A stretch of 64,000 nucleotides of DNA, from contig NZ_JANQAJ010000005.1 in NCBI RefSeq assembly GCF_024707105.1, forward strand, positions 310,001 through 374,000. The letters are read 5' to 3'. The translations under genes and the position numbers were made by a program. Shown here one piece after another: positions 8,839 through 56,546 of the stretch. A model generated the notes under the pieces. It did not search any database and had not been told where the DNA came from. It saw nothing but the letters and a program-made list of their open reading frames with translations. This DNA is from Devosia ginsengisoli. GTDB lineage: Bacteria > Pseudomonadota > Alphaproteobacteria > Rhizobiales > Devosiaceae. Numbering within the stretch: position 1 is the first letter of the stretch; each line of letters begins with the position of its first letter.

Positions 8839-9423
8839 CTAGCGCCGCTTCTTGTCGACCTGGTGGTAGGCCCGGCGCGAGTGGAATTCGCAATAGGGGC
8901 CGGTTTCCAGGCTATGCTGGCCGCAGAAATAGAAGTCCTTGGTCAGCGGATCGCCGATCGGCCACTTGCAGGTATGCTCGTTGAGTTGCAGCAGGTTGAG
9001 GCGCTTGTCCTCGGGGATGAACAGCTCGGCCACGGCCGGCGCAACATAGAGGTCAGCTTCCAGCTGCGGATCATGCGCCAGGGCCGTGGCACCCACCGAT
9101 TGCGGGCGCGACATGGACGACCGTACCTTGCCGGCGCCACCCATGCCGGAAAGACCGGAAGAGGGGCTGGCAACGCGGCGCGGCGCCGGGCGCGAGGCCG
9201 GACGGGCGCGCGGGGTCGAATTGGTCGGCTTGGCACGCGCCGAGAGCTTGAGGCGATGCACCTTGCCGATCACGGCATTGCGGGTAACCCCTTCGCCGAG
9301 TTCGCCTGCAATCTGGCTGGCCGAGAGACCTTCCATCCAGAGCTTTTTCAAAGTCTCGACGCGCTCGTCAGTCCAGCCCGCCGGTTGTGCTCCTGAAACC
9401 ATCGTCAAAACAGAATCCTTCAT
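8839..9423 (-). CDS. gcrA: GcrA cell cycle regulator
   Basis: The GcrA N-terminal DNA-binding helix set is clear: WTDERVETLKKLWMEGLSAS followed by QIAGELGEGVTRNAVIGKVH. GcrA binds sigma-70 RNA polymerase and activates promoters carrying CcrM-methylated GANTC sites. A proline/arginine-rich linker (TPRARPASRPAPRR) separates this from the C-terminal RNA-polymerase-binding part (CKWPIGDPLTKDFYFCGQHS, Cys/His-rich as in the family). Two starts are possible, ATG 9423 (194 aa, chosen) and ATG 9402 (187 aa, closer to Caulobacter GcrA and preceded by AAGGAT 13 nt away). The track start at 9489 is unlikely. The promoter contains a CtrA-type site and several GANTC sites. Confidence 0.95.
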   Translation of the reverse strand: MKDSVLTMVSGAQPAGWTDERVETLKKLWMEGLSASQIAGELGEGVTRNAVIGKVHRLKLSARAKPTNSTPRARPASRPAPRRVASPSSGLSGMGGAGKVRSSMSRPQSVGATALAHDPQLEADLYVAPAVAELFIPEDKRLNLLQLNEHTCKWPIGDPLTKDFYFCGQHSLETGPYCEFHSRRAYHQVDKKRR

Positions 9424-9610
9424 TGCGCCGCCAAATGATAAATGGCAGCCATCAAACGCTAGGCGTCGTATGTCAGGTGGGTCCGCCACACGAGATATCG
9501 TGTTCCCAATGCCATGGAGTTTACGACATCGGCGGAATCGGGATCAAGAGTCGGGCTCGACTTTCCCCGTAAATTCACTGGTTAAAATTGTCCTAACAAA
9601 CTCCCGAGTC
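9413..9610. promoter_or_regulatory. gcrA/argD divergent control region with GANTC and CtrA-type sites
   Basis: Of the roughly 350 bp between gcrA and argD, this part carries four GANTC sites (9413, 9535, 9548, 9606) and a CtrA-like element TTAA-N7-CTAAC at 9582-9597, one base off TTAA-N7-TTAAC. In Caulobacter CtrA represses gcrA and CcrM methylates GANTC, so the sites fit the known circuit. Base content is lower in GC than the flanking genes. Confidence 0.55.
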
Positions 9611-48519: not shown

Positions 48520-49567
48520 ATGCGCGTATTGATTGTTGACGACAGCCGGTCGAGCCTTGCCATGATCGGCACGATCATCAAGGCGGCGACCAATGCGGAT
48601 ATCGACTCCTGCCTGTCGCCGCGCGAAGCGCTCGAGCGCAGCGAGACTACACAATACGATCTGGTCCTGGTCGACCACATCATGCCCGAAATGGACGGCG
48701 TGCAATTCACCAGCGCTTTGCGGGCGCGCGAGGCCTACCGGCTGGTGCCCATCATCATGGTCACCTCGGACATGGACCGCAACACGCGCATCGAGGCGAT
48801 CAGGGCCGGCGCGACCGATTTCGTCAACAAGCCGTTCGACCCTACCGAATTGCAGGCGCGCGTCGCCAACCTGCTGACCCTGCGCACTGCCCAGGTCGAA
48901 CTGGCCGACCGCGCCAACTGGCTGGCGCGCGAGGTCGAGCTGGCCACGGCGCACCTTGTTGGCGCGCGAGGAAGAAATCATCTGGCGGCTGGCCCGCGCC
49001 ATCGAATATCGCGACGGCGACACCGGCGAGCATGTCTCGCGCGTGGCCCAGATCAGCCAGCTCATCGCCAGTGGTATCGGGCTCAGCCCGCAACGCTGCC
49101 GCATGATCTATCTGGCGGCGCCCCTGCACGATATCGGCAAGATCGGCATTGCCGATGCCATATTGGGCAAGCCCGGCAAGCTGACGCCGGAAGAGTTCAG
49201 CATCATGCGCGAGCATGTGACTATCGGCGCCCGCATTCTCGAAAACGGTTCGTCCGAACTGATCCGCACCGCCGAACTGATCGCCCAGAGCCATCACGAG
49301 CGCTGGGACGGCGCGGGTTATCCCGACAGGCTGTCGGGCACCGACATTCCGATCGAAGCCCGCGTCGTCGCCATTGCCGACGTCTTCGACGCCCTGTGCT
49401 CGGAACGGCCCTACAAGGCGGCCTGGCCCATCGACAAGGCTTATGCCGAAATCGTCGCCTGCAGCGGCACGCATTTCGACCCAGCCTGCGTTGCCGCCTT
49501 CTGCGCCAAGTGGCCCGAGATCGAAGCCATCATGGGTGGCACGCAGGCCGAGGCCGTCGGCCTCTAG
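48520..49567 (+). CDS. RpfG-like response regulator with HD-GYP domain, frameshifted
   Basis: Receiver domain from ATG 48520: [20 protein letters not shown], phosphorylated Asp in LVLVDHIMPEMDGVQF, then a linker ANWLAREVELATAHL. The HD-GYP domain continues in the +1 frame: LAREEEIIWRLARAIEYRDG, AAPLHDIGKIGIADAILGKP (HD), and SHHERWDGAGYPDRLSGTDI (GYP). One extra T in CACCTTGTTGG (48955-48959) accounts for the shift; without it the protein is 348 aa. HD-GYP enzymes degrade cyclic di-GMP, and receivers of this type link signals to motility. Its position beside the chemotaxis operon fits. As given, the receiver frame continues in a nonsense reading to 49731. Confidence 0.88.
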
Positions 49568-50086
49568 GCGTTCAGCTCCGTCATTGCCATCGCGACCCGA
49601 CGCCTGCAGGCAGTGCTGCGCTACGTGCGTCAGTTGGTGATGACGAATGGGGGGCAGTCGCGAGTTCTCGGTTGGGCAGAAACAGCCATACAAGAACAGC
49701 GGCCCGGATCACGCCGTTCCGCGCGGCATGATACTGCGCAATATTGCAAGTATTACTTGAATCGAGATTCACATCCGACTCACCGCGCTGAATCGAAGAC
49801 TCATGACACCAGAGTCATGATTCACTGGATTCACTGATCAGGCTTCCATGACTCTGAATCAAGAGAGCAATACTTATTTGCCAATCGAAATAAAGATTTG
49901 ATTGGCGAAAGTAGGCTAAAGTAAGACAGCTTTAATCAACTGCGCTTACCTTCTGTAATGCATCGGATGGGAATACGATGCGTGTAGTCGAAGTCAACGG
50001 AAACGTAAGATCACGCCTTAAGAAACTGGTAATATGACTGGTTTCCCGCGGCCGTGATCCCCATCCCCGCGGTATAAAGTCATGTA
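49568..50086. promoter_or_regulatory. Non-coding control region before the chemotaxis operon
   Basis: 519 bp without a convincing gene. It is more A/T-rich than the neighbours. Contents: the GANTC cluster (49759-49860), an inverted repeat GCCAATC-N13-GATTGGC (49880-49906), a weak CtrA-like TTAA-N7-GTAA (50018-50032), and a 13-codon mini-ORF from ATG 50082 whose stop overlaps the alternative GTG start of the STAS gene. Confidence 0.6.
49759..49860. promoter_or_regulatory. Cluster of ten GANTC (CcrM) sites
   Basis: GANTC begins at 49759, 49766, 49777, 49790, 49798, 49812, 49819, 49828, 49850 and 49856. That is ten in 102 bp, against roughly 0.4 expected if bases were random. Spacings are irregular (6-22 bp). 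Parts also fold, such as GAATC-GA-GATTC and ATGAC-ACCAGA-GTCAT. Confidence 0.8.
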
Positions 50087-50455
50087 TTGCTTCCTGTGCT
50101 CCACGACTCGGTCATTGCCGTGACCAGAGGTAGTGTCCACGTCGTCAAAATTTCCGGTGATGCCGGATTGCGCGCAGCGCAGGATATAGCCGCGTCGCTA
50201 AGCGAGGCGCTTGCCGGCCATGACAAGGTTGCCATCGCCACCGAGGCGATATCAGGCGCCGATATCACCACCATTCAGCTTCTGCTGGCCGCCCGCAAAC
50301 AGGCTCTGGCCTCTGGAAAGTCGCTGTCGCTTGCGGCGCCGCCGACCGGCGTGCTGCGCGATCTGCTGATCCAGAGCGGGTGTCTCTCTGCCGATGGCCG
50401 ACCGCTTACGCAAGACGGCGACTTCTGGACACCAGCCAAGGGCAAGGCAGCATGA
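50087..50455 (+). CDS. STAS domain protein of the chemotaxis operon
   Basis: 122 aa from TTG 50087, or 111 aa from GTG 50120, which overlaps the stop of a mini-ORF; neither has a strong ribosome site. The STAS pattern is visible: VHVVKISGDAGLRAAQDIAA, SLSEALAGHDKVAIATEAIS, GADITTIQLLLAARKQALAS, GKSLSLAAPPTGVLRDLLIQ. STAS proteins at the head of che operons are common in Hyphomicrobiales; a role in signal tuning is inferred. In the usual phosphorylated position (before the ITT stretch) it has GADITT rather than the DSSG of anti-sigma antagonists. cheY overlaps by 4 bp. Confidence 0.8.
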   Translation: MLPVLHDSVIAVTRGSVHVVKISGDAGLRAAQDIAASLSEALAGHDKVAIATEAISGADITTIQLLLAARKQALASGKSLSLAAPPTGVLRDLLIQSGCLSADGRPLTQDGDFWTPAKGKAA

Positions 50456-50820
50456 CAAAGACTATCCTGACCATCGACGATTCAGCATCCATCCGCCAGA
50501 TGGTGGTGATGACGCTGTCCGGTGCCGGGCTCGATGTCATCGAGGCCATCAACGGCGCCGATGGCTACACCAAGGCCACCAGCCAGACGGTCCATGCCGT
50601 CATCACCGACCTCAACATGCCGGTCATGAACGGCATCGAATTTATCAGAAAATACCGCCAGCACCCGTCCAGCAAGGGTGTGCCGATCATCCTGCTGACC
50701 ACCGAGTCCGACGAAGAGCTCAAGCGCCAGGCCAAGGAAGCCGGTGCCACCGGCTGGATCGTCAAGCCCTTCAAGCAGGACCAGTTGTTGGCCGTCATCA
50801 AGAAGGTCACCGGCGCATGA
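50452..50820 (+). CDS. cheY: Chemotaxis response regulator CheY
   Basis: 122 aa single receiver domain. Acidic pair DD9-10 in LTIDDSASIRQMV, phosphorylated Asp53 in VITDLNMPVMNGIEF, switch Thr in ILLTTESDEE and Lys in WIVKPFKQDQ. Phosphorylated by CheA (next gene, 4-bp overlap); binds the flagellar motor switch. It is the only CheY in the window, so there is no obvious phosphate-sink CheY here. Confidence 0.94.
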   Translation: MTKTILTIDDSASIRQMVVMTLSGAGLDVIEAINGADGYTKATSQTVHAVITDLNMPVMNGIEFIRKYRQHPSSKGVPIILLTTESDEELKRQAKEAGATGWIVKPFKQDQLLAVIKKVTGA

Positions 50821-52832
50821 GCTTCCCCGATCCGTCAGAGACATTCCGCCAGGAAGCCCGCGAGCTGCTCGAACAGCTCGAACTGGGCCTGCTCGACCTG
50901 GAGCAGAACCCGGCCAATGACGACCTGATCAATTCCACCTTCCGGGCGCTGCACACCATCAAGGGCTCCGGCGCCATGTTCGGCTTCACCGCCGTCGCCG
51001 CCTTCGTGCATGAATTCGAGACGGCTTTCGACCAGGTGCGCAAGGGGCATAGCCCCGCCACCTCGGAACTGATCGCCGTGGCGCTTGACGCCAAGGATCA
51101 TATCCACAAGCTGATCGAACAGCCCGACGCGCCTCAGGCCGGCGGCGAAGGCATTCTCGAAGCCCTGCGTATCGTCCTCACGGCAGCCGATATCGAAGCC
51201 GCCGCGCCGGTCGAGGTTGAAACACCGGAGCCGGTCGCCGCGCCGGCTACGGCCGCAAATGGTCGCTGGCGTATCCGCTTCCGCCTGCCGGGCGATGCGC
51301 TGGTCTATGGCACCAATCCGCTGCTGCTGCTCGACGAAATCAAGGCTATCGGCCCCTGCACCATCGTGGCGCTGACCGATACCATTCCGCCGCTCGACGT
51401 GATCGACCCCGAAGTGCCCTATATGGGCTGGCAGGTCGATCTCACGGCCGACGATCCGCGCGCCGCCATCGACGACGTCTTCCTGTTCCTCAAGGACGGC
51501 ATGGAATTGTCGGTGGAGCCGCTGGAGGCGGAGGCCGTTGCGGTCCAACCCGAGCCCGAGCCTGAACCTGCGCCCGTGGCGACGCCCGCCAAACCGGGCA
51601 AGGCGCCGAAGGCCGCCAAATCGGTCGAGAAGGAAGCGCCGGCCAATGCCGAGCGCGCGGCATCCTCCTCCATGCGCGTTGATGCCGAACGGCTCGACGA
51701 ACTCATGGATCGGGTCGGCGAACTGGTCATCGCCCAGGCGCGCCTGACCCAGATCGCCGCCATGAGCAGCGACGGCAATCTCAAGACCATTGCCGAAGAA
51801 CTCGAACGCCTGAGCTCGGGCCTGCGCGACACCACGATGGGCATCCGCATGGTGCCCATCGGCACCCTGTTCAGCCGCTTCCGCCGCCTGATCCACGACC
51901 TCAGCCGCGATCTCGGCAAGGAGATCGACTTCATCACCTCGGGCGAAGACACCGAACTCGACAAGACCATGATCGAGCGCCTGGCCGATCCGCTGGTCCA
52001 CCTGATCCGCAATTCGGTCGACCATGGCCTCGAACCGGCCGAAAAGCGCCTCGCCGCCGGCAAGCCTGCCAAGGGCACGGTGCGACTTTCGGCCGTCTAT
52101 GCCGGTGCCGAAGTCGCCATTTCGGTCACCGATGACGGGGCAGGGCTCAACGCGGACCGTATCCGCGCCAAGGCCGAGGAAGCGGGCCTGCTCGCCCCCG
52201 ATGCCAAGATCGCCGACCAGGATCTCTGGCAGATGATCTTCGCCCCCGGTTTCTCCACCGCCAAGGAAGTCACCTCCCTGTCGGGCCGCGGTGTCGGTAT
52301 GGACGTGGTCAAGCGCATCATAGACGGGCTGCGCGGCAGCATCGATGTCGCTACCACGCCGGGCAGCGGCTCGACCATGACCCTGCGCCTGCCGCTCACG
52401 CTGGCTATCATCGACGGCATGCTCGTGCGGGTCGGCAATGGCCGCTACACCATCCCGCTCGCGGCGGTCGAGGAATGCGTCGAACTGCCCGAGGGCATCG
52501 AAGCCAATGCCCGTGGCCGCAACTTCCTCGATATCCGCGGCAGCCTCGTACCCTTCCTGCGCCTGCGCGAAGTGTTCGGCACCAAAGCCCCGGCCGAGCC
52601 GCACCAGAAGGTGGTGATCGTCTCCTCCGGCGAGGGCCGCGTCGGCCTCGTGGTCGATCAGATCATTGGCAACAACCAGACAGTCATCAAGCAACTGAGC
52701 AAGCTCCACTCTTCCATCAAGTCGTTCTCCGGGGCGACGATACTGGGCGACGGCACGGTCGCGCTCATCCTCGATACCGCCCACCTGGTCCAGTTCGGCC
52801 AGGGCTATGTCGACCAGGGGAGGGCAGCATGA
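50817..52832 (+). CDS. cheA: Chemotaxis histidine kinase CheA
   Basis: 671 aa from ATG 50817; the track start lies in cheY. P1 phosphotransfer domain with His46 ([18 protein letters not shown]), a short P2-like region then a linker rich in Pro/Ala/Glu ([20 protein letters not shown]), P3 dimer helices ([20 protein letters not shown]), P4 ATPase ([53 protein letters not shown]) and P5 ([40 protein letters not shown]). Complete. Couples to receptors through the CheW proteins. Confidence 0.95.
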
Positions 52833-53329
52833 GCACCACCGAAACCGGCTCCATGAAGGCGCTGACATTGCGCCTGCAGGACGAACTGTTCGCCATCGAG
52901 GCGGGCAGCGTGCGCGAAATCCTCGATCTCGTGCCGATCACCGAAGTGCCCAATGCCTCGCCCTTCGTCAGCGGCCTCATCAATGTGCGCGGCCGCGTCG
53001 TGCCGCTCGCCGATCTGCGCGTGATGTTCGGCATGGACCGGCCCGAGCCGGACGAGGACACCCGCATCGTGGTGATGGAAGTCGATATCGACGGCGAACC
53101 CACCGTGGCCGGCATTCTCGCCGACAAGGTCCACGACGTCACCGATATCGAAGCCGCCTCCATCGAGGAGGCTCCCAGGGTCGGCATGCGCTGGCGGCCG
53201 GAATTCATCCGCGGCATCGGCAAGCGCAACGGCGGCTTCATCATCATCCCCGATCTGGGGCGAATTTTCGAGACACAGGGCGCCAGAACCGCGTCCCCGG
53301 CAGCATCAGAAGAAAGGTCTGCAACGTGA
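52829..53329 (+). CDS. cheW: Chemotaxis coupling protein CheW (first copy)
   Basis: 166 aa. [91 protein letters not shown] cover both CheW beta barrels. The start overlaps cheA by 4 bp, its stop overlaps the GTG of the first receptor gene. A second, more divergent CheW is at 56558. Confidence 0.94.
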
Positions 53330-55419
53330 GACTGACAATCAAAACCAAACTGGCGGCGGTGTTCACCGTGGTCGTGGCCCTTTCGGGCGCCAGCATGTTC
53401 ATCGCCCTGCAGAATCTCGGGCAACTCAATGACAACCTCGAGCACATCATCACCGGGCCGGCGGCGCGTTCCATCGCGCTCAAGGAAATGCAGGAAGATC
53501 TGACCGGACTGAGCAACAATCTGCGCGCCATGATCCTGAGCTCGAGCGCTGAAGAGCTTGCGGCGGACCAGCAGGCGCTGAGCGTTCTGTACGGCGAACT
53601 GCTTGCAGATGCCGAGGGCATGAGCGGCACGTTCACGGTGGAGGAATCCAACCGTGACATGGAAAGTTTTGTCACCGCTCTCGAACAGTATTGGGCGGTG
53701 TCCGTGCAGGTGCAGGACTACGCCAAGCTGAATTCCGATACGGTGGCCTTCGAAATCACCACCAGCGAAGGCAGCGCGTCCATCACGGCCCTGGAAGAAA
53801 CCATGGGCAGCCTGATCGGCGCCCTTGGCCGTCGGCTGAATGCCGGGGACCTGTCGGCGGTGCCCGCCTATGACACCGCCAACGCCATGTTCCTCAAGGC
53901 CAGCGATGCCTTCCGGCAGCAGCGCAATATCCTGCTGGCCGACGGGAATCCTGCCAAACAGGACGAGTGGCTCAACGACTACCACACGGCCGTGGCCGAT
54001 CTGGAAGGCGGATTCGCCCAGTTGGTTCGCATTGTCGGCCCTGCCGAAGCAGGCCTCGCCACCCAGGCACAGGCCGACTATCAGGCGATGATCGTCGCCA
54101 TGAACAAGGCCGTCGATGTGGCGGTCCAGCGCTCGCAATATTACGCCGTGGAACTTGCCGATGGCGAGGGCGCAACGCTGCGCGCTGCCGCCGTCGATCT
54201 GCTCGAGACCATCGTCGAGCGCAACGACGCGCTGCTGCGCCAGGCGGCCGTGGACGCCGATGCACTCTACGAATCCAGCCGCATGCTGCTGATCGGCATC
54301 CTGGTCGGCTCGGTACTGATCGCGCTCATCGCCGCGCTCTGGATCGTCATCTCGATCTCGCGTGCCCTGACCAGCGCTGTCCGCCTCGCCAACGAGGTGG
54401 CCGATGGCAATCTCAGCGCCACCGTGGTCAGCAAGAGCGACGACGAGGTCGGCGACCTGATCAAGGCGCTCAATTCCATGACGCAGAAGCTGCGCGAAGT
54501 GGTGAGCGAAGTCACGGTCGCCACCCGCAATGTCGCGGCGGGCAGCCAGGAAATGTCGGCCACGGCCGAACAGTTGAGCCAGGGCGCGACCGAACAGGCC
54601 TCCTCGACCGAAGAGGCTTCGGCCTCGATGGAAGAAATGGCCTCGACCATCAAGCAGTCGGCCGACAATGCCAGCCAGACCGAGAAGATCGCCCGCCAGT
54701 CCGCGGCCGATGCCATCGCCTCGGGCGAAGCGGTGAACAATGCCGTGGAAGCCATGCAGACCATCGCCGAGAAGATCATTGTGGTGCAGGAAATCGCCCG
54801 GCAGACCGACCTGCTGGCCCTCAACGCGGCGGTCGAAGCGGCGCGCGCCGGCGAACATGGCCGCGGTTTTGCGGTCGTGGCCTCCGAAGTGCGCAAGCTC
54901 GCCGAACGCAGCCAGGCTGCCGCAGCGGAGATTTCCACACTGTCGGGAACGACCGTAAAGGCGGCCCAATCGGCCGGCGAAATGCTCGGCAAGCTGGTGC
55001 CCGATATCCAGCGCACGGCCGAACTGGTGGAGGAAATCTCCGCCGGCAGCCGCGAGCAGAATGCCGGTGCGGCCCAGATCAACACCGCCATCCAGCAGCT
55101 CGACAAGGTGACCCAGCAGAACACTTCGGCCGCCGAGGAAATGTCGGCGACATCAGAAGAGCTGGCCAGCCAGGCTGAACAGCTCCAGGCCGCCATCAGC
55201 TACTTCCGCATCGACGCCTCGTCGATCCCGGTCGCGGCGAACAAGAGCGAAGCCAAGGCCACCGGCGATCTCAAGCAGGCCATCCTGGCCAAGGCGCCGC
55301 ATATGGCGCCGCGCAAGACCGGCGGGAAGGCCAAGGCCCCCAATTCGGGCGGCTTCGACCTCGATCTGGATGACGGGCACGACGAGCTCGACGGGGATTT
55401 CACCCGCCGCAGCGCCTGA
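53326..55419 (+). CDS. Methyl-accepting chemotaxis protein (full length)
   Basis: 697 aa from GTG 53326, overlapping the cheW stop (GTGA). Membrane segment [20 protein letters not shown], a large helical periplasmic sensor of about 280 residues (four-helix type, two predicted bundles), second segment around residues 319-343 ([20 protein letters not shown]), HAMP ([20 protein letters not shown]), then the signalling hairpin with tip [40 protein letters not shown]. Gln/Glu methylation-type pairs flank it. C-terminal tail [20 protein letters not shown] shares its form with the truncated receptor downstream. Ligand unknown. Confidence 0.93.
54528..55218 (+). repeat. Direct repeat, copy A (receptor signalling domain)
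   Basis: 691 bp, nearly identical to 55661-56351 at a constant offset of 1,133 bp. Differences are scattered and mostly silent. Confidence 0.85.
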
Positions 55420-55550: not shown

Positions 55551-56546
55551 ATGCGTTTGACCATAAAGGTAAAACTGGCTGCGACATTCCTCGGGCTGGC
55601 ACTCGAGCGCATGGTCTCCAAGCTGCGCGACGTCATCACCGAAGCCATTTCCTCCGCCAACAATGTCGCGGCGGGCAGCCAGGAAATGTCGGCCACGGCC
55701 GAACAGTTGAGCCAGGGCGCGACCGAACAGGCCTCCTCGACCGAAGAGGCTTCGGCCTCGATGGAAGAAATGGCTGCCACCATCAAGCAGTCGGCAGATA
55801 ACGCTTCGCAAACCGAGAAGATCGCCCGTCAGTCCGCCGCAAACGCCATCGCCTCGGGCGAGGCCGTGGACAACGCGGTCGCGGCCATGCAAACCATCGC
55901 CGAAAAGATCATGGTGGTGCAGGAAATCGCCCGCCAGACCGACCTGCTGGCCCTCAACGCGGCGGTAGAAGCGGCGCGCGCCGGCGAACATGGCCGCGGT
56001 TTTGCGGTCGTGGCCTCCGAAGTGCGCAAGCTGGCGGAGCGCAGCCAGGCTGCCGCGGCCGAAATCTCGACGCTGTCGGGAACAACCGTAAAGGCGGCCC
56101 AATCAGCCGGCGAAATGCTCGGCAAGCTGGTGCCCGATATCCAGCGCACGGCCGAGTTGGTGGAGGAAATCTCCGCCGGCAGCCGCGAGCAGAATGCCGG
56201 TGCCGCGCAGATCAACACTGCTATCCAGCAGCTCGACAAGGTGACCCAGCAGAACACTTCGGCCGCCGAGGAAATGTCGGCGACATCAGAAGAGCTGGCC
56301 AGCCAGGCCGAACAGCTCCAGACCGCCATCAGCTACTTCCGCATCGACGCCAGCCCGACCAGCCAGGCCGCCGCCAAGGCCAAACCGGCTCGGGCTGGCC
56401 TGCGCGACGCGATCATGGCCAAAGCCCCCCATATGGGAGAGGCCAGGTCCGGCACGCGGAGCGGCAAGGGCGGTGGTTTCGATCTCGACCTCGATGATGG
56501 CCATGATGAACTCGACGGCGAATTCACCCGTCGCGGCGCGGCATAA
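55551..56546 (+). CDS. Receptor signalling protein without sensor domain
   Basis: 331 aa. Starts [15 protein letters not shown] like a receptor's first membrane helix, then jumps to [20 protein letters not shown] and the complete methylation and signalling hairpin ([20 protein letters not shown]). The periplasmic domain, second membrane helix and HAMP are missing, consistent with an in-frame deletion of about 470 codons after a receptor duplication. The 15-residue N-terminal remnant is too short to span the membrane, so it should be cytoplasmic. The C-terminal tail [20 protein letters not shown] is the same as in the full receptor. It could form arrays but not sense externally. Confidence 0.9.
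55661..56351 (+). repeat. Direct repeat, copy B (receptor signalling domain)
   Basis: Partner of 54528-55218; see there. A substrate for homologous recombination that would delete 1,133 bp. Confidence 0.85.

Follow-up and report, generated by a model that had tools for sequence, protein, structure and literature searches.

A conserved, helically phased array of GANTC sites upstream of a CtrA-type chemosensory promoter in Devosiaceae, a probable methylation-responsive control element

Gene content and promoter region of the che locus

The window (the whole 64-kb stretch of DNA that was analysed) includes a chemosensory gene cluster, and the nearest named genomes are those of Devosia. The cluster is preceded by a gap bounded by an HD-GYP response-regulator gene (end 49567) and a STAS gene (start ~50087). 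The genes that follow the gap are:

50087–50455, + strand: STAS-domain gene, the first of the operon (ORF list; Pfam STAS_2, 4e-11)
50455–50820, + strand: cheY (Pfam Response_reg)
50817–52832, + strand: cheA (Pfam Hpt, H-kinase_dim, HATPase_c, CheW)
52829–53329, + strand: cheW (Pfam CheW)
53326–55419, + strand: mcp (Pfam MCPsignal, HAMP, 4HB_MCP)
55551–56546, + strand: second mcp, short, with the MCP signalling domain only (Pfam MCPsignal)

The STAS gene starts at a TTG in the ORF list; a more internal GTG could serve as the start codon instead. Past the second mcp gene, ORFs resembling cheW, cheR and cheB were recognised from their translations, as judged by eye.

The following features were assigned within the gap:

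49748–49758, no strand assigned: AT-rich box AAGTATTACTT at the upstream edge of the array (recurrence of AGTATT/AATACT)
49759–49860, no strand assigned: array of ten GANTC (CcrM) sites, ~60–160 bp upstream of the CtrA box (count, conservation, phasing)
49869–49875, no strand assigned: AT-rich box AATACTT at the downstream edge of the array (recurrence of AATACT/AAGTAATA)
49880–49906, no strand assigned: inverted repeat GCCAATC-N13-GATTGGC, not conserved
49921–49935, + strand: CtrA box GTAA-N7-TTAA (GTAAGACAGCTTTAA), at a place shared by Devosia loci
49954–49959, + strand: possible -10 element TGTAAT, from its spacing to the CtrA box
49960–49981, + strand: hairpin GCATCGGATGGGAATACGATGC at the presumed 5' end of the mRNA, with a conserved loop (GATGGGAATA) and a covarying stem

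No reading frame is conserved or remains open across relatives, which ruled out the array as a coding sequence and bore out its placement in a non-coding gap before the STAS-cheY-cheA operon. An Rfam scan of positions 49560–50200 gave a single match at chance level only, and there was no real Rfam match for the hairpin at 49960–49981. In the hairpin stem, 15 double-change cells were counted, as compared with 6.3 in shuffles; the loop of ten bases is conserved in relatives, and the exact 14-base core of the hairpin occurs only once in its own genome.

The CtrA box is presumed to be an activator site at the -35 region. In all Devosia loci with enough upstream sequence except one (L141, see below), a GTAA/TTAA-N7-TTAA box was found at a constant distance to cheA, about 880–920 bp before the gene. 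The genome encodes CtrA, which is 83% identical to Caulobacter CtrA, and the combination of box and ortholog would be that of a CtrA-regulated promoter. The site had originally been described as weak and CtrA-like; the site itself stands, but the box is conserved at a fixed place and does not merit the term weak. In both Caulobacter and S. meliloti, the CtrA regulon includes chemotaxis (PMC7987155). Motility and chemotaxis promoters activated by CtrA resemble the present one in having a GTAA-N7-TTAA box before a che operon, whereas Devosia adds a fixed GANTC array upstream.

The AT-rich boxes recur at both edges of the array: roughly half of the relatives have AGTATT/AATACT near -171 relative to the CtrA box, and many have AATACT/AAGTAATA near -50; in part of the loci the boxes are displaced or missing. 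The inverted repeat, which the original prediction had placed beside the array, differs by a single mismatch in the closest relative and is missing from the five others inspected. It was rejected as a part of the element for want of conservation and probably lies outside it.

Density, conservation and selection of the GANTC sites

All ten predicted GANTC sites were found within 102 bp at the positions claimed, with starts at 49759, 49766, 49777, 49790, 49798, 49812, 49819, 49828, 49850, and 49856; the array thus consists of the exact CcrM motif, as would be required of a methylation target region. The window as a whole is depleted of GANTC (76 sites versus 265 ± 14 expected from dinucleotide shuffles), the usual situation in Alphaproteobacteria that have CcrM (PMC3973325). 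Given the GANTC rate of the window itself, the Poisson probability of at least ten sites in 102 bp is ~1e-16. When the 140-bp stretch with the array was dinucleotide-shuffled 5000 times, the mean was 1.4 GANTC and the maximum seven.

A genome-wide count of clusters, proposed earlier as a check, was run on the 4.37-Mb genome as a pattern search for chains of three GANTC sites with gaps of up to 30 bp. Such triplets occur at 30 places, eight of them within the array cluster, and the largest group found elsewhere by this search has four sites. The GANTC cluster is therefore unique in its genome, and the many similar clusters that had been named at the outset as grounds for refutation were not seen.

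The detailed comparison included 51 Devosiaceae che loci, with cheA loci taken from named genomes and STAS loci from relatives. The loci were anchored on the CtrA box, which is therefore an inclusion criterion of the set and not a result of it. Upstream of the box, at ~60–190 bp, these loci contain 3–10 GANTC sites (median 7). Of the 51, 48 contain four or more sites and two contain three; the remaining locus (L080) is truncated by the end of its contig. Eight orthologous loci came from an additional search, which overlapped the set by three loci, and seven of the eight have the array. It is also present in a Pelagibacterium MAG (L110).

The eighth of these loci (L141 in genome G076) belongs to a Devosia species whose CheA is 69% identical; it has three scattered GANTC sites and no strict CtrA box. 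This locus is a possible case of natural loss.

Operons that are homologous but lie outside Devosiaceae (Ciceribacter, Aquibium, Rhodovulum, Fulvimarina, Bradyrhizobium, and others) carry at most three GANTC per 110 bp and have no CtrA box in the corresponding position. More distant cheA copies, which probably belong to the flagellar system, also have no array within ~0.8 kb upstream (no more than three GANTC per 110 bp). The array was hence rejected as a general feature of cheA genes. As judged by these comparisons, it is tied to the che promoter and, among the homologues examined, to Devosiaceae only.

Comparison of related genomes, also suggested at the outset, revealed that the GANTC sites are kept while the surrounding sequence drifts, the reverse of the refuting outcome named there. 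In 21 close pairs, which are partly non-independent, GANTC was kept at 266 of 307 sites (87%), as compared with 995 of 3307 (30%) for other words of like form. In loci L048 and L050, which are 47% identical, 12 of 15 GANTC sites were kept versus none of 142 other words. Among 20 pairs examined for indels, the array is free of gaps in 15 and has one gap in five; the stretch just upstream, which is somewhat more diverged, has gaps in 17 of the 20.

GANTC occurs in the array region at 9.45 times expectation, while the six one-mismatch words are at 0.36–0.95 of expectation, none being enriched. The centre base of the array sites is nearly free. From these two features together, it is the methylase motif itself that is under selection, and the pattern is that expected of a methylase target, not of a tolerant transcription-factor site. 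CcrM has been reported to have at least 1e6-fold lower specificity for AANTC (PMC10359602), and the exact GANTC pattern of the array matches this preference. The flanks are mildly biased: T precedes 42% of the array sites (25% expected), A is favoured after the site, and TGANTC makes up 62% of the sites in the array versus 26% of other GANTC sites.

Spacing of the sites along the helix

The distances between sites peak at 5–6, 11, 15–16, 21, 26, 31–32, 36–37, 42, 47, and 52–53 bp. In 35 representatives, the periodicity gave z = 12 at 5.3 bp and z = 5.5 at 10.6 bp. To reduce the effect of common ancestry, the shared 21-bp backbone was removed and each distinct remaining offset was entered a single time; the observed value was then not reached in any of 20000 draws, and a weighted permutation gave p = 0.0004. 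The strength of the phasing comes from the whole set, the members of which share ancestry, and it is modest in single sequences. Several clades are individually significant; the source window is not (p = 0.16 at 5.25 bp and 0.08 at 10.5 bp). From clade to clade, the register of the array shifts by a few bases relative to the CtrA box.

The sites thus tend, as judged by their spacing, toward two opposite faces of the helix. Spacing at half and whole helical turns indicates a protein array, since methylation alone needs no phasing. A protein-binding array, which the original prediction had named as an alternative, therefore gains support and may be methylation-dependent. Whole-turn phasing of methylation sites, as in SeqA-type systems, was also found, with distances of 21, 31–32, 42, and 52 bp prominent alongside the half turns. 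Like the array, the hemimethylated GATC pairs bound by SeqA in E. coli are methylatable palindromes at whole helical turns. The SeqA system differs in its methylase and motif, in its location at the origin and not at a promoter, and in that the phasing in Devosia includes half turns.

Long runs of GANTC spaced by 21 bp were also observed in several genomes of the order, e.g. at G049 C338:4717–4868. From their period, they look like coding repeats of seven codons (heptads), a trap for searches for phased arrays. An order-wide search for phased 21-bp triplets gave many matches and was rejected as evidence for arrays, being uninformative because several matches with a seven-codon period look like coding heptads.

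Candidate readers and competing explanations

The genome encodes a RAMA-domain (CcrM-type) protein, the open frame of which spans 384 aa and which was assigned as CcrM from its RAMA domain; in a control of the RAMA search with 14 genomes, only Caulobacter matched. MucR is also encoded, and a candidate reader lies in the window:

8839–9423, − strand: gcrA, candidate reader of methylated GANTC (PF07750, 2.8e-51)

The relevance of CcrM and GcrA to the locus, assumed in the original prediction, is thus backed by the presence of genes for both.

The sequence comparisons give good support to a real, selected and lineage-specific control element composed of helically phased CcrM sites. Its function most likely depends on methylation, because the methylase motif is kept exactly. 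The array is probably a methylation-responsive cis-regulatory element in helical register, located upstream of a CtrA-type STAS-cheYAW-mcp promoter. CcrM would methylate the array sites, and a GANTC-reading protein with a mild preference for TGANTC would bind them cooperatively on one or both faces of the helix. Occupancy by the reader would be set by the methylation state (full, hemimethylated after replication, or shielded), and expression of the che operon would thereby be coupled to replication and the cell cycle jointly with CtrA. The reader may be GcrA, acting upstream at many sites in an atypical way, or else a different protein.

It is proposed more tentatively, as a reading that may well not hold, that the helix-phased array and a cooperative methylation-sensing reader time or switch the chemosensory operon of Devosiaceae, as a counterpart in the CcrM world of SeqA/GATC or Lrp/pap. 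Heritable on/off switching is possible and is indicated by no result of the analysis, and the original prediction is thus supported in part. In the Dam phase switches pap and agn43, two or three GATC sites lie inside known Lrp or OxyR sites, and heritable switching has been demonstrated. Clustering of methylation sites upstream of a promoter is common to these switches and the array; they differ in the small number of GATC sites, their location within Lrp/OxyR sites and the demonstrated switching.

One alternative, which would be a special case of the preferred reading, is a canonical GcrA activation site, at which GcrA and sigma70 act on methylated GANTC and the many sites only raise occupancy. 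This is somewhat doubtful, even though GcrA and CcrM are both encoded and GcrA binds methylated GANTC (PMC3667746). The GcrA footprint on ctrAP1 corresponds to the core promoter, from -35 to +7, and binding to the methylated GANTC there covers ~12 nt in the hemimethylated and >40 nt in the fully methylated state (PMC3667746). The array is located far upstream of the presumed core promoter, about 100–200 bp before a presumed start that was placed from the CtrA box. The targets tested in PMC3667746 carry none to three GANTC sites, and the array shows no enrichment of YGAKTCG, the GcrA motif of Caulobacter (10% of sites, as compared with 10% elsewhere). GcrA itself stays a possible reader, since Brevundimonas GcrA has no such extended motif; the determinants of GcrA binding are still unclear (PMC7987155). 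Known CcrM/GcrA promoters of Caulobacter (ctrAP1, mipZ, and others) resemble the array in having promoter GANTC in CcrM-encoding Alphaproteobacteria, and conserved promoter GANTC accompanies misregulation in a ccrM mutant (PMC3973325, PMC3667746). However, the ones described in the papers examined carry one to three sites close to the core promoter, as opposed to the Devosia array, in which up to ten phased sites precede the CtrA box.

The array may also be a shielded, hypomethylated region, in which MucR or another protein bound to the AT-rich edge boxes blocks CcrM and provides an environmental override. There is precedent: in Caulobacter and S. meliloti, several promoters are protected from CcrM by MucR, and CtrA is capable of the same protection on a synthetic promoter (PMC5172544). 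The AGTATT/AATACT boxes bracket the array in many loci and therefore leave room for MucR-like shielding. Promoter GANTC together with AT-rich or CtrA sites, and genes for MucR and CtrA, are found here as for the shielded promoters, but no dense phased array was found described for the latter (PMC5172544). Shielding as the sole explanation is unlikely: it requires neither helical phasing nor a large number of sites, and the boxes are not kept at their places in every locus.

A methylation-indifferent transcription factor that binds TGANTC-like sites cooperatively along the helix, the overlap with the CcrM motif being incidental, is rather unlikely. Helical phasing and a preference for T/A flanks are typically seen in protein arrays, and a strict GANTC binder indifferent to methylation would produce most of the same signature. 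Against this, the lack of enrichment of one-mismatch words and the nearly free centre base would be unusual for a transcription factor and fit a methylase site, and GANTC is strongly depleted elsewhere.

Very unlikely is a role in replication, as a SeqA-like hemimethylation platform or a chromosome landmark that adjoins the che genes fortuitously. The phasing is similar to that needed for efficient SeqA binding in vitro, namely GATC pairs two to three turns apart (PMC5145175), but the array is always found beside this che promoter with its CtrA box. The locus is separated from hemE, which we take as the origin marker, by ~13–47% of the replication arm in eight genomes that have a single main chromosome; an origin-proximal landmark was rejected on this basis, and the replication-linked array raised earlier as an alternative is disfavoured. 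Chance, AT-rich composition or a coding repeat is extremely improbable: 21-bp spaced GANTC in some other genomes does resemble coding heptads, but the shuffles, the genome-wide count, retention across species and the absence of a conserved open frame refute this origin for the array.

The methylation-responsive control element favoured here is apparently undescribed so far, and searches of the open-licence literature revealed no account of a GANTC promoter array that is phased or has ten sites. For the most part, CcrM marks are known from promoters with one or a few sites, the reading of which is uncertain. Many selected sites in a fixed register would provide a natural probe of the GANTC reader and of hemimethylation versus full methylation, and could be used to ask whether Alphaproteobacteria exert control by methylation at many sites, as enterobacteria do with GATC. 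Devosia are mostly environmental and cultivable, so the array is directly testable.

Other GANTC groups were observed in the genome. In the window, four GANTC lie at and upstream of the gcrA start (9413–9610), which suggests that gcrA may be under CcrM control. A second group (GAATCATTGACTCGGGAGTC; L012, region of G000 C14:667533) recurs in relatives and is located between maf-like and hemE-like genes, as judged by eye from translations; the maf-hemE interval is the usual place of the alphaproteobacterial origin. A further locus (L013, G000 C14:736205–736231) has four GANTC in 27 bp, and similar strings occur in other Devosia.
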